Part shown: one piece after another, positions 32,652-40,335 of the stretch
How the letters are laid out: each line of letters opens with the position of its first letter
How positions within the stretch are numbered: the first letter of the stretch is position 1
DNA from: Bacteroidota bacterium
GTDB taxonomy: Bacteria; Bacteroidota; Ignavibacteria; Ignavibacteriales; Ignavibacteriaceae
Assembly: GCA_022562275.1 (NCBI GenBank)
Contig: JADFPP010000015.1
Location: 1-53,881, forward strand
Direction: 5' to 3'
DNA: 53,881 nucleotides
Notes under the pieces: generated by a model
The model's database searches: none
What the model saw: only the letters and a program-made list of their open reading frames with translations
Told to the model about the DNA's origin: nothing
Position numbers and translations under genes: made by a program

Positions 32652-32959
32652 TTTGATAGGTATTGTATTAAGATTTAACAGCAAAAAGTTAGCGGCGATT
32701 CGCGCTAAAATCTCATATAAGACTATCAGTTTAAATTGGAATTTTCAATTTTCTATTAAAAGAAATCTTTGAAAAACTAATATAGGCGGGCGAAGCAAAA
32801 CAATATACTTAGAATTCGACAGAATTAGCCTTTATAAAAGAATTGATTTGCTAATTTCAACAGGTTTTGCAAAGCCCCCTAAAAATATTAAATTTGAAAC
32901 ATTTTCTCTTGTTTACAATGTTTACAATTACTATATTGTACTACAAAATAGGAGCAAAA
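32652..32959. promoter_or_regulatory. Promoter region of the RelBE-type pair
   Basis: 308 bp without a gene. Near the 3' end two tandem GTTTACAAT copies (32911-32928) overlap a plausible promoter: TTGTTT (32909-32914), 17 nt, TATATT (32932-32937). AGGAG lies just before the antitoxin ATG. The tandem repeat is a good candidate for the antitoxin operator. Upstream, TTAGCG/CGCTAA makes a weak hairpin; nothing else is recognised. Confidence 0.5.
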
Positions 32960-33178
32960 ATGAGCAAAGTAATATCGATAAGATTACCTGACGAAACCGA
33001 AAAAAAGTTGACGGAAATATCAAAAGAAACGGAAAGAGCAAAATCGTTTCACATTCAAAAAGCGATTGAGATTTACATCGAACAATTTTCTGATTACCGG
33101 ATTGCTCTTGATAGATTAAACGATTCGAATGACGAAATCATATCTGCCGAAGAGATGAGGAAGCTTCTTGACGTATAA
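32960..33178 (+). CDS. Ribbon-helix-helix antitoxin (RelB/CopG type)
   Basis: A 72-residue protein starting MSKVISIRLPDETEKKL, a classic RHH beta-strand and helix, followed by a toxin-binding C-terminal tail (DEIISAEEMRKLLDV). ATG 32960 has AGGAG 5 nt upstream; an upstream in-frame ATG would add an unrelated hydrophobic stretch. It overlaps the toxin gene by 11 nt, so the two are translationally coupled. It should neutralise the RelE-like toxin and repress the promoter. Confidence 0.9.
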   Translation: MSKVISIRLPDETEKKLTEISKETERAKSFHIQKAIEIYIEQFSDYRIALDRLNDSNDEIISAEEMRKLLDV

Positions 33179-33419
33179 GATAAAATTCAAGAAATCAGTT
33201 TACAAAGACCTCTCAAAAGTTCCATCCGAAGAAGCTAAAACAATTCTCAATAAAATAGATATGTTATTAGCTGAAAAGCCAACAATGCTTCCTGCATTAA
33301 AGGGTAAGTTTAAAGGAATGAGAAGAATGCGCGTAGGGAGCTACAGGATTATCTATGTGATAATAGAAGATGTAGTTTTAGTCTTAAGAATTCATCATAG
33401 AAAAGATGTGCATAAGTAA
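33168..33419 (+). CDS. RelE/ParE-family toxin
   Basis: An 83-residue toxin. TYKIKFKKSVYKDLSKVP opens like RelE (xxIxFxxxAxKdLxKLp), and ALKGKFKGMRRMRVGSYRII with IHHRKDVHK gives the R-x-G-x-Y-R core and the basic C-terminus of mRNA-cleaving RelE proteins. The start is a TTG at 33168, preceded by GAGGAAG inside the antitoxin gene, giving an 11-nt overlap. It is expected to be a ribosome-dependent endoribonuclease. Confidence 0.88.
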   Translation: MTYKIKFKKSVYKDLSKVPSEEAKTILNKIDMLLAEKPTMLPALKGKFKGMRRMRVGSYRIIYVIIEDVVLVLRIHHRKDVHK

Positions 33420-34620: not shown

Positions 34621-35778
34621 ATGAAGAATATAAGAATTGCAATTGCGGGAATAGGTAATTGTGCAAGTTCACTAATTCAGGGATTTCACTTTTACAAAAA
34701 CAAGTCTATAGAAGAAGCAATAGGATTAATGCATTGGGAAATTGGGGGATATAAGCCATCCGATATTGAAGTTGTTGCAGCATTTGATATAGATAAAAGA
34801 AAAGTAGGCAAAGATGTAAATCAAGCTATATTTGAAAAACCGAATTGTACAACTGTTTTCTGCAATCAACTGCCTGAATCCGGAGTGATAGTACAGATGG
34901 GCAGGATTCTGGATGGCGTAGCCGATCATATGAAAGAGTATGATGAGAATTTCACTTTCCTCCCCGCAGATGAGACTGAACCGACCAAGGAGGAAGTAGT
35001 GCAAATCCTACAAGATTCAGGTGCAGAGATCCTTTTAAATTATCTCCCGGTTGGATCTGAAGAAGCTGTTCGCTTTTACGCCACATGTGCACTCGAAGCA
35101 GGCGTTGCCTTCATTAACAATGTGCCAGTATTTATTGCAAGCAATCCCATTTGGGCAAGAAGATTCGAAGAAAAGAATCTTCCTTTAATAGGCGATGATA
35201 TTAAATCTCAGTTAGGTGCTACTATTACACATAGAATGTTGGCTGATTTATTTAAGAAACGCGGGGTTAAGCTTGAGCGAACTTATCAGCTAAACACCGG
35301 GGGTAACACTGATTTTCTGAATATGCTCGAGCGCAAAAGACTAACATCCAAGAAAATATCGAAGACTGAAGCCGTACAATCTGTAGTAGCTAAAAGACTG
35401 GAGAACGAGAATATTCATATCGGTCCAAGCGATTATATTCCATGGCAAAAGGATAACAAGCTCTGCTTTCTGCGTATAGAAGGTAAACTCTTTGGTGATG
35501 TTCCTATGAATCTGGAACTTCGGCTTTCTGTTGAGGATTCTCCGAACTCTGCAGGAGTTGCTGTTGATGCAATTCGCTGCACTAAGTTAGCCTTGGACCG
35601 CGGGCAGGGCGGTGTACTTTACGCACCTTCTGCTTATTTCTGCAAGCATCCTCCTCGCCAATTTACAGATGATGTGGCTTTTCAAATGGTAGAACAATTT
35701 ATCAATAATGTTGAACTGGAAAGCATTCAGTATGAAGTGCCTGATTTTAGCAGCGGGGAAAGGGAGCCGGCTGCGTAA
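34621..35778 (+). CDS. ino1: Inositol-1-phosphate synthase
   Basis: A 385-residue NAD-dependent enzyme converting glucose-6-phosphate to myo-inositol-1-phosphate. [16 protein letters not shown] is the Rossmann start; [15 protein letters not shown] and [12 protein letters not shown] are the hallmark active-site blocks of MIPS, and [19 protein letters not shown] is also conserved. The length fits the short bacterial/archaeal class. Its 3' end overlaps the next gene by 47 nt, giving tight coupling to the cytidylyltransferase that would use its product. Confidence 0.95.
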
Positions 35779-37063
35779 TAAGGTTGATAGCAAACCCTTA
35801 CTGCCGGTTCTTGGTGTGCCTCTAATTGAACGCGTTATCCGCAATGCCATGCAAGGCGGAGCGGATGACTTTTATATTGTTACGGGTAATCAGAAAGAAA
35901 AAGTCACTTCATTTCTTAATGTTTTATCAAAAAGATTAAATGTATCTATTAAAACCGTAGAAAATAATGAGTGGGCTAACAGTGAAAACGGAACATCAAT
36001 ATATAAAGCGAAGAATTATTTAACCGAGCCATTCTTATTGTTGATGTCTGATCATTTATTCGATCCTTCTATTGTAAAGCAATTGATCGCTTCAGATTTG
36101 GGTGAAGGAGAGATTACACTTGCAGTTGATGAAAACATTACTAATCCAATTATCGATCTTGAAGATGTAACCCGTGTTCGCTATGATGACGGTAAAATTC
36201 AAAATATTGGAAAAGAACTTTCATCTTACAATGCCTTTGACACCGGGATTTTTTATTGTGCTCCTGCGATTTTCGATGCGTTAGAGAAGAGCAGTGAAAA
36301 AGGTGATACGTCCCTTTCAGGCGCTGTGAGGATTTTGGCAAAGAATGGCAAAGCTAATGTGCTGGGTATAAATGGAAGTTTTTGGATTGATATTGATGAT
36401 GAAAAAAGCCTAAAGAAAGCTGAAGATGCTTTAATAAGTCAGCTTCGTAACAAACCAAATGATGGACCGGTTTCCCGTTATCTTAACCGCCCTCTTTCAA
36501 TCAGAATCTCAAAGTTACTGGTAAGATTTCCAATTACACCCAATGTGATCTCTGCCCTCTCATTTCTTTTATCATTATTTGCTGCCGGATTATTTGCGTT
36601 CGGTAAAAATTATGTATCACTGCTCATTGGCGGATTGATAACTCAATTAGCTTCTGTTATTGATGGATGTGATGGCGAAATTGCCCGATTAAAATTTATG
36701 AGAAGTAAATACGGCGGCTGGTTCGATGCAGTGCTTGACAGATATGCTGATGCTTTTCTGCTTTTTGGTTTAACCTGGCATGAATATATGATTAACAATG
36801 GAAATTTGATTTTGATTATCGGGTTTATGGCAATCATTGGTTCATTTATGTTAAGCTATACTGCTGATAAATATGATAATCTCATGAATGAAAGAATAGC
36901 TTCTGGTGGTACCTGGCAAATAAGAATTGGAAGGGACGTTAGGCTGTTTATTATTTTAATTGGAGCTGTGTTGAATCAAATTTTTATTCTACTGGTGATT
37001 ATAGCTGTTGTTATGAATCTTGAAACTGTGCGAAGAATAATTGTATGTAAAAGTGATGAGTAA
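35732..37063 (+). CDS. Inositol-1-P cytidylyltransferase / CDP-alcohol phosphotransferase fusion (IPCT-DIPPS-like)
   Basis: A 443-residue two-domain protein. Residues 1-~235 form a nucleotidyltransferase ([20 protein letters not shown], then [16 protein letters not shown]). From ~245 there is a membrane CDP-alcohol phosphotransferase with the full motif [11 protein letters not shown]...[13 protein letters not shown] (D-x2-D-G-x2-A-R-x8-G-x3-D-x3-D). This is the architecture of the bifunctional enzyme of di-myo-inositol-phosphate synthesis: CTP plus inositol-1-P gives CDP-inositol, then condensation with inositol-1-P. Phospholipid head-group synthesis is the alternative. ATG 35732 lies inside ino1; the stop overlaps the next start by 8 nt. 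Confidence 0.88.
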
Positions 37064-37634
37064 CATTGAATGTGCAAATCAAAAAATTTTACAGATTGTT
37101 GCCATATCTAAATTACCAGAGGACTTACCTCACGCCAAAAACACATTGAAATGGCTCTTAAGATTACAACCAAAGGCGGACGAATCACTCCGGCTTGCGG
37201 CACTTGCGCACGATATTGATCGCGCAGGCGAACACACAAAAGTAAAACGGTTGGATTTTAAAGATTATTCCTCCTTTAAAGCAGCTCACGCCAAACACAG
37301 CGCCGAAATATTGCAGTCAATACTTGAAGAGTGCAAAGTAGAGAAGTCTGTTGTTGAAGAATCATGCAGACTTGTATCACTTCATGAAGTTGGTGGAGAT
37401 GATCGTTCTGATTTACTGATGTATGCAGATAGTATTTCTTTTTTTGATGTAAACCTGCCTCACTATTTCCGGCGGGAGGGTTGGGAGGAAACTTTAAGAC
37501 GGGTAATATGGGGTTTGAAACGCATTCCAAATGAACTCTGGTCTTTAATTGATAATATTTCTTTTAATAATAAAGATTTAGTAAAAATAATTAATGTAGC
37601 TAAGAAGAAAGTAGTGGATTCAGCTTTTTGTTAA
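37056..37634 (+). CDS. HD-domain (DUF4202-like) protein, candidate phosphohydrolase
   Basis: A 192-residue helical protein. LRLAALAHDIDRAGEHTK carries the HD metal-binding pair. Further candidate ligands are the His residues in HAKNTLKW, HAKHSAEI and SLHEVGGDD and the Asp in LMYADSISFFDVN, giving an H..HD..H..D pattern. It overlaps the preceding gene by 8 nt, so it belongs to the inositol operon. Inference: it could remove the phosphate from di-myo-inositol phosphate phosphate (DIPP), a step for which no phosphatase is present in the other two genes. The family itself has no firm function known to me. Confidence 0.75.
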   Translation: MSNIECANQKILQIVAISKLPEDLPHAKNTLKWLLRLQPKADESLRLAALAHDIDRAGEHTKVKRLDFKDYSSFKAAHAKHSAEILQSILEECKVEKSVVEESCRLVSLHEVGGDDRSDLLMYADSISFFDVNLPHYFRREGWEETLRRVIWGLKRIPNELWSLIDNISFNNKDLVKIINVAKKKVVDSAFC

Positions 37635-38176: not shown

Positions 38177-39862
38177 TTAATTATCTAAAAAATTATAGTG
38201 TTTTATTCCGTCAATTAATCCTCCTGCATATTCATGCGATGAGAAATATACTTTTTTCTTTCCCTTCAAGTTTTCAAGTTCTAAACTATGATTTGCAACA
38301 ACTACACCTAAGAGCTTACCATTTAATATTTCTCTATCAATCCCCGATTCTCCGGCGACGAGTATATTATCGTAAGGAATATTCCATTCGTTTGCCAGGT
38401 ATAATATTGCTTTTCCTTTTGAGGCTCTGAATGGGAGAATGTCCAAATACAATCCGTGACTGAAAATAATATTAGCTTTTATGTTATTTTCTATCAGAAT
38501 GCGATTTATCATTTTTGTCTTCTCCGGGCTATCCGAAGTATAGTAACTTATTTTAAAAATACGTTGTGCCTCATTTTCTTGTAATTGTAAAAATTTTAAT
38601 CCGGATAACAAATTGACTATTGAATTTCTGTTCCACAAGTATGAAATATGAGCATCCCACCCCATCGAATAAATTTGCTCACCGTCATAGTTATAATAAA
38701 TTTCCGAGCCAGCCGAAGAAATAATTGCTTTCGGTAACGGTACATTCATTCTATTTAACAAATCATGTGTTGAACTTACGGAACGACCGGTTGCCACGAC
38801 GAATCCTATTTTTTTCGGCATATTTTTTACAATGCTGATAAATTCTTTTAATGAGCTGTTAACTCCAACTAATGTATAGTCGATATCCGATACTATCATC
38901 TTATCTATGCGAAGCAACTGTTTGCCGGTCTTTTCAATTGAATGTACTTGATCTGGCTTGGTTATAGGAGTTGATTTACTTTTCTGTAAAATCTTTTTTG
39001 TTTGAACCTGACGGGCGTGATCTTCTTTAATATTATTTTTACTAATTTGGGAATGCCTTTCCTTCAGTTTAACCTCACCAAATATATCTTTTACTTTACT
39101 GGGAATACTTTTTCTGTTTCCGTATAGTATTATTTTCAACTCATGCCACAGTGCGATATATGATAAAGATGCTTCGGATGTTAAACTATAACACAATAGT
39201 GGTTTACGATAAATGCCCATTTTTTCCACGTCGGAGGCATAGGGAATAAGGTGCTGAAGAAACCGTTCATCTTTTTCTACCATTGATTCGATTGTAAACC
39301 TGTGCAGTTTCTTTCGCATTTCAACCATAGAAAAAAATGGGGATAGTTTAGAGCGATCAAAATTATTGTTTTTAAAAAATTTCAACATTTTTTTGTAGGT
39401 CATCTCAGATAAGGTTGTTGGTATGAACGGTACCAGAATCTTATCTGCTGCGCAAAACACATTTTCCGATAGAAGTGTTAAATTGGAGGGACAGTCTAAA
39501 AAGATATATTTATAAGTAGAAGCAAGCGGTTTTAAAATCTTTTTTAAGTGTTTCTTTGGATTTTTTAGATCGTTCAACTTTATGTCTAAATTTCGATAGG
39601 AAATATCAGATGGAAGAAGATCGAGATAATCGAAGTCTGTGCCCCTTATATATTTATCAATACCAGTTTTAATTCTCAAAAATTCTTTTGAATTATATTT
39701 CTTGGAGGCTTTTATTCTAAGATAGAAGGAAGCAGATCCCTGTGGATCAAGATCACAAAGCAAAGTACGTGCACGTTCTCTGGAGGCTAAATAAGCTAAA
39801 TTTACAGATGTTACTGTTTTCCCGACCCCACCTTTAATATTGTAGAGCGCAATGATCTTCAA
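38177..39862 (-). CDS. ParA-type ATPase fused to sucrose-phosphatase-like HAD hydrolase
   Basis: A 561-residue protein. Residues 1-~255 are a ParA/Soj-like deviant Walker ATPase: YNIKGGVGKTVT (P-loop), LLCDLDPQGSAS (Walker A') and YIFLDCPSN (Walker B). A ~65-residue charged linker follows. Residues ~322-561 are an HAD-IIB domain like sucrose-6-phosphate phosphatase: motif I VSDIDYTLVG, motif II VATGRS, ISSAGSEIYY, the Lys motif RASKGKAILY, motif IV VAGESGIDREIL and the SPP-like tail VYFSSHEYAGGLIDGIKHY. Motif IV departs from the usual GDSGND (GESGID). The start is TTG, overlapping the upstream gene by 4 nt. A single polypeptide joining these two activities is unusual; its substrate is unknown. 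Confidence 0.85.
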   Translation of the reverse strand: MKIIALYNIKGGVGKTVTSVNLAYLASRERARTLLCDLDPQGSASFYLRIKASKKYNSKEFLRIKTGIDKYIRGTDFDYLDLLPSDISYRNLDIKLNDLKNPKKHLKKILKPLASTYKYIFLDCPSNLTLLSENVFCAADKILVPFIPTTLSEMTYKKMLKFFKNNNFDRSKLSPFFSMVEMRKKLHRFTIESMVEKDERFLQHLIPYASDVEKMGIYRKPLLCYSLTSEASLSYIALWHELKIILYGNRKSIPSKVKDIFGEVKLKERHSQISKNNIKEDHARQVQTKKILQKSKSTPITKPDQVHSIEKTGKQLLRIDKMIVSDIDYTLVGVNSSLKEFISIVKNMPKKIGFVVATGRSVSSTHDLLNRMNVPLPKAIISSAGSEIYYNYDGEQIYSMGWDAHISYLWNRNSIVNLLSGLKFLQLQENEAQRIFKISYYTSDSPEKTKMINRILIENNIKANIIFSHGLYLDILPFRASKGKAILYLANEWNIPYDNILVAGESGIDREILNGKLLGVVVANHSLELENLKGKKKVYFSSHEYAGGLIDGIKHYNFLDN

Positions 39863-40086
39863 ATTTTTATTTTTTCTTTTTTATTATTTGATAATAATGC
39901 ACGAAATAAATTCATATTAATTTTTGCACTAAAGTGTTTAAATTTTCCTTGAAAAGCATTCCTCACATTCTTTTTTTCATGATTTAGTTCAGAAATTAAA
40001 ACACCGATAGCATCAGCTTCAAGCACAAAATTCTTTTCATTTAAAAATAATTTATCCGGATAGTTATTTAACACACTAATTTGCAC
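39859..40086 (-). CDS. Small protein translationally coupled to ParA-HAD
   Basis: A 75-residue protein, start GTG at 40086, starting MQISVLNNYPDKLFLNEKNF and ending with a basic tail KKEKIKI. It contains EADAIGVLISELNHEKK, suggesting an amphipathic helix. Its TGA overlaps the TTG start of the ParA-HAD gene (39859-39862), a sign of coupling. No family is recognised. By position it resembles the small partner proteins that accompany ParA-like ATPases, which is inference. No Shine-Dalgarno. Confidence 0.55.
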   Translation of the reverse strand: MQISVLNNYPDKLFLNEKNFVLEADAIGVLISELNHEKKNVRNAFQGKFKHFSAKINMNLFRALLSNNKKEKIKI

Positions 40087-40335
40087 AGAGTAATTAGTAA
40101 ATAAACCAAGATTATCCTGTAATTTTTTTTAACTGTTTACTTAATATAACTATCTTTTTTAAGGAAAAAAGCGATGAGAATATCCGGAAAGTAGTAGATG
40201 GTTACAAATGATTAAAGATATTTGTGCTTGAGTAAACCTTTAAAATACAGTAACGAAATAATTATGATATCGGTTATCTATAAAAATGCATTCGTATAAG
40301 ACCACAATCTTGTTGTCATCGGTATTCCTGGCATA

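Follow-up and report, generated by a model that had tools for sequence, protein, structure and literature searches.

In one gene of an Ignavibacteriaceae draft genome a ParA-type ATPase and an SPP domain are joined in a single frame. The gene lies on the minus strand of the window, the whole stretch of 53,881 nucleotides that was analysed. The account that explains it best, to which we give a probability of roughly 60%, combines descent from a CHAD-ParA operon and a bifunctional SPS-SPP gene with a present role for the SPP part as a tethered, catalytically weak domain.

The origin is the firmer part of this account. Sequence comparison makes it very probable that two ancestors were combined: a CHAD-ParA operon of a widespread type and a gene for a bifunctional SPS-SPP. 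The natural end of ParA would have come to run on into ~55 residues from the end of the SPS glycosyltransferase, followed by the complete SPP domain. The rest of the glycosyltransferase would have been lost, and the CHAD gene truncated and frameshifted. Purifying selection would have continued to act on ParA and SPP, whereas what was left of the glycosyltransferase diverged into an unconstrained linker. The fusion is a case of traceable domain shuffling: the sequence still shows each parent, the vestige of the missing partner and a linker in decay.

The gene (38177-39862) is one unbroken ORF of 561 codons. Its parts and immediate surroundings are as follows.

39125..39862, minus strand: ParA domain (aa 1-246), from the TTG start to the natural ParA C-terminus
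38954..39124, minus strand: linker (aa 247-303), a diverged C-terminal remnant of the SPS glycosyltransferase domain
38177..38953, minus strand: SPP/HAD-IIB domain (aa 304-561 plus stop), derived from a bifunctional SPS-SPP
38336..38353, minus strand: altered HAD motif IV, GESGID (aa 504-509), with D505E and N508I at the positions of D186 and N189 of Synechocystis SPP
39859..40187, minus strand: CHAD pseudogene, last ~100 residues, with a frameshift in the A8 run at 40123-40130; includes a 75-aa ORF
39859..39862, minus strand: TTGA, the 4 nt shared by the stop of the CHAD tail and the start of ParA; an overlap inherited from operons of the CHAD-ParA type

An earlier note on this DNA had recognized ParA and SPP-like domains in one frame, and the ORF, the profile matches and every motif it listed agree. 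The ParA motifs are KGGVGKT (aa 10-16), DLDPQG (37-42) and LDCPSN (122-127), and the HAD motifs are DIDYT (326-330), ATGRS (357-361), SKGKA (481-485) and GESGID (504-509). Pfam AAA_31 matches at aa 1-165 (8.9e-36) and S6PP at aa 321-558 (4.7e-65), and the score against NCBIfam TIGR02471 (sucr_syn_bact_C), 236.3 bits, exceeds the cut-off of 209.75. The note was also right that motif IV is aberrant, all relatives aligned having GDSGND, and that a 75-aa ORF (39859-40086) overlaps the start of the fusion by the 4 nt TTGA. In an AlphaFold model made from an alignment with ParA rows only, ParA folds well and SPP is unresolved; because the alignment held no SPP relatives, the model is silent on the SPP fold.

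Two parents and a lost partner

The fusion ParA is up to 59-60% identical, over its full length, to stand-alone ParA proteins of ~248 aa. The top identities are with proteins from a family of the same phylum (Chlorobiaceae, judged by identical named sequences), stand-alone ParA proteins of one family of the same order (f2) are 46-52% identical, and close relatives are present in many other phyla. None of 34 invariant ParA positions is altered. A quick tree places the fusion ParA inside a CHAD-linked ParA family and away from the genome's own Soj-type ParA; identity to the latter is about 30%, and the two are separate proteins. The PDB match, 8ray, is named in a study of chromosome segregation by ParAB.

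The association with CHAD is widespread. In 68 of the best 80 named ParA loci the gene immediately upstream of ParA encodes CHAD, and 32 of these 68 pairs overlap by 4 nt. Five genes in the same position in other genomes have Pfam CHAD matches of 8.4e-42 or better. The fusion also points to a broader pattern, a ParA encoded with a polyphosphate-binding CHAD protein, that recurs across many phyla. The pair is spread over about ten of them (L081-L160; examples are L102 3343-5735 and L119 3397-5726). Polyphosphate is the ligand of CHAD domains, which are found at polyphosphate granules (PMC6537752), and the pair is a candidate system for positioning such granules. The literature searched makes one passing mention of the pairing, the gene order folD-ppk-parA-CHAD in Acidithiobacillus, noted without functional study (PMC10892726), and contains no functional work on the pair. 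In the same literature the worked ParA-type organelle case is the carboxysome, and the protein given for polyphosphate granules in Pseudomonas is the histone-like AlgP. ParA lacks a directly upstream CHAD gene in 12 named loci, mostly of Methylococcaceae (L139 5001-8291 and 11 others); in Methylobacter tundripaludum a glycogen/carbohydrate phosphorylase gene lies 3' of the CHAD-less ParA.

At the fusion locus there is no intact CHAD gene directly upstream as in most of the named loci, but its tail is still recognizable. The frame of the 75-aa ORF is already open back to a stop at 40131. Extended to that point, it reads KKLQDNLGLFTNYSVQIS... and matches CHAD C-termini with E values down to 1.4e-9. 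When frameshifts are allowed, the relic aligns with CHAD residues 397-495, the reading frame changing once, in the A8 run. The sequence upstream of the frameshift, taken alone, does not stand above shuffles (5 of 60 reach its score), so the identification of the relic rests on the tail match. That match and the alignment rule out the ORF as a conserved partner, and the small coupled adaptor proposed in the earlier note turns out to be the end of a CHAD gene that has been truncated and frameshifted. No CHAD gene was found elsewhere in this genome, in which a polyphosphate kinase gene is present. With a frameshifted tail here and no other CHAD in the genome, the adaptor gene has therefore been lost and the 4-nt overlap inherited.

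The other parent is a bifunctional SPS-SPP of ~720 aa, whose C-terminus is matched by the SPP half; such proteins are encoded by many members of the family and the order. Residues 248-561 of the fusion are 59% identical to the SPS-SPP of a sister species. A genome of the same genus (G004) has an intact SPS-SPP of 719 aa (L004), flanked on one side by a fructokinase-like ORF and on the other by a second, sucrose-synthase-like glycosyltransferase ORF (names judged from sequence). No SPS glycosyltransferase was found in the genome with the fusion, which gave weak generic glycosyltransferase matches only. The likeness to SPS extends into the stretch that had been described as a ~65-residue charged linker. 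Residues 247-303 align nearly gap-free with the end of the SPS glycosyltransferase domain, with an in-register PSSM score of 30.7; shuffles have a mean of -40.6 (sd 12.5), and none of 20,000 reaches 30.7. Judged by this alignment, the linker did not arise as new sequence and is decayed SPS sequence from the C-terminal end of the glycosyltransferase.

A single occurrence in a variable slot

No second ParA-SPP fusion was found in the order (164 genomes), in samples from the class (391 genomes) and the phylum (395 genomes), or in the best 80 named ParA loci, and a back-translated protein search of named genomes with the fusion as query gave no match. Nor does any of those 80 loci have an SPS or SPP gene beside ParA. 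The one weak match beside ParA, in L156, was rejected because it spans no more than part of the glycosyltransferase profile. In G247 and G099 ParA lies within long open frames (517 and 589 aa), but these were not accepted as fusions either; at G099 the ORF is a normal ParA of 247 aa that follows a CHAD gene. The literature searched, which covered related topics and not this exact pairing, has no mention of a ParA-SPP fusion.

The earlier note had reasoned that a lack of homologues would point to a one-off fusion or to an assembly error. The first possibility fits what was found, whereas the second runs against the evidence. A chimera of two unrelated genes might be suspected in a single case from a fragmented draft of 148 contigs. 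However, the outer genes are colinear with those of a sister species (G005:C22), in the order transketolase, DPP-IV-like peptidase, then CDP-inositol enzyme and inositol-phosphate synthase. In addition, ParA is joined in frame and at its C-terminus, and the linker alone has lost SPS constraint, unlike what would be seen in a fresh chimera. This makes an assembly error extremely improbable. The fusion occupies a variable slot between the colinear flanks, and the content of that slot is different in G005.

The cluster adjoining the fusion (34621-37634) encodes an inositol-phosphate synthase, a CDP-inositol-type nucleotidyl/phosphatidyl transferase fusion and an HD/DUF4202 protein. In G005 (L069 13253-15337) the middle protein of the cluster has an extra C-terminal HAD-like stretch and is followed by an inositol-monophosphatase-like ORF (names judged from sequence). 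What if the SPP domain was taken over as a phosphatase of the inositol-phosphate type to serve the inositol-1-phosphate synthase and CDP-inositol enzymes next door? The proximity of the cluster and the content of the G005 slot would suit this scenario. However, the cluster is on the opposite strand from the fusion, its HD-domain gene (37041-37634) could do the job, two genes of the inositol-monophosphatase family are present elsewhere in the genome, and the ParA domain would be left without a reason. Such a recruitment is very unlikely. Elsewhere in the window (32867-33419), a ~103-aa protein without a Pfam match overlaps a ParE/RelE-type toxin-like protein (Pfam ParE_toxin), and the two are probably a toxin-antitoxin pair.

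Selection and the phosphatase site

Change rates at conserved codon positions 1, 2 and 3 are 0.143, 0.070 and 0.400 in ParA and 0.067, 0.077 and 0.533 in SPP. Changes in both domains are therefore mostly at third positions, and neither has gaps relative to its relatives. The linker is different. Conserved first and second positions are altered at 20 of 59 in the linker versus 21 of 288 in SPP (Fisher p 4e-7), and its divergence is near-neutral. In the intact SPS-SPP of G004 the same contrast is not significant (p 0.12). This suggests that the fusion is old enough for a freed linker to have drifted while ParA and SPP were both retained. Because there is a single example, selection after the fusion is read from this internal contrast and not from orthologues, and the constraint on SPP is partly older than the fusion event.

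Perhaps the fusion is a by-product of rearrangement that is drifting to loss and has no present function. Its single occurrence among the genomes searched, the destroyed CHAD partner, the lost SPS, the altered motif IV and the variable slot would all be in keeping with this, and the decay of motif IV could be the onset of function loss. Nevertheless, 561 codons are still open, ParA and SPP are gapless with changes clustered at third codon positions, drift is confined to the linker, and no ParA invariant has changed. A gene without function is somewhat unlikely on these grounds.

The phosphatase site is where the SPP domain has changed most clearly. Six of 78 SPP positions that are invariant in 13 relatives are altered in the fusion, and four of the six lie within aa 501-515, the motif IV region (hypergeometric p 0.004, a guide only, because this interval was picked after the changes were seen). 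In an alignment to Synechocystis SPP, D186 is replaced by E and N189 by I, whereas D190 is retained. N189, Q107 and K116 of the Synechocystis enzyme touch the glucose ring of sucrose-6-phosphate, and both motif IV Asp residues are thought to serve acyl-phosphate hydrolysis (PMC9971976). Motifs I-III are present in the fusion, with the HAD nucleophile and acid Asp (in DIDYT), Thr and Lys retained, as are the equivalents of Q107 and K116, two of the three glucose contacts. Both catalysis and specificity for sucrose have probably suffered.

This bears on the model of the earlier note, in which the ParA ATPase positions or gates a sugar-phosphate phosphatase that is active. The retained catalytic residues and glucose contacts would favor activity. 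However, the changes in motif IV affect an active-site Asp and the glucose-contacting Asn, there is no SPS in the genome to supply sucrose-6-phosphate, and the supposed adaptor is a pseudogene tail. The motif IV change and the absence of SPS therefore make sucrose-6-phosphatase activity improbable. A role as a sucrose or sugar-phosphate phosphatase is doubtful, and the model as a whole is quite unlikely.

Possible function and known systems

The function that we prefer is put forward tentatively, as one possibility. A working, nucleoid-binding ParA ATPase would carry a catalytically weak or dead SPP as a tethered binding or assembly domain in place of the lost CHAD adaptor. The tethered domain may, for example, bind a sugar phosphate or a cargo surface, and might substitute for a cargo-binding, ATPase-stimulating partner. 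A more specific version is that the ATPase has swapped its CHAD adaptor for a covalently attached, repurposed sugar-phosphatase as cargo or ligand module, in which case a metabolite could control positioning. This extension is unlikely.

Several known systems resemble the fusion in part. With bifunctional SPS-SPP (TIGR02471/PF05116) it shares the whole SPP domain and the last ~55 glycosyltransferase residues, in register, but it has ParA in place of the glycosyltransferase and GESGID instead of GDSGND. Bidomainal cyanobacterial SPS proteins, such as Synechocystis SPS, provide a precedent for SPP domains retained without activity (PMC9971976). There too the SPP domain is kept with altered active-site residues, and a non-catalytic role has been proposed. 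In those proteins, however, the alteration is in motif I and SPS is still present; the fusion has its alteration in motif IV and ParA as the partner.

On the other side, CHAD-linked ParA proteins share with the fusion the full-length ParA likeness, the 4-nt overlap with the upstream frame and a non-ATG start, which is also found in same-order relatives. They differ in that the CHAD gene of the fusion locus is only a frameshifted tail and its ParA bears a C-terminal SPP domain. The McdA/ParA/MinD cargo-positioning ATPases share the deviant Walker A ParA fold, and positioning along a nucleoid gradient may apply to the fusion as well. However, no intact partner gene adjoins the fusion at its locus; where those systems have a separate adaptor gene, the fusion has an enzyme-derived domain covalently attached.
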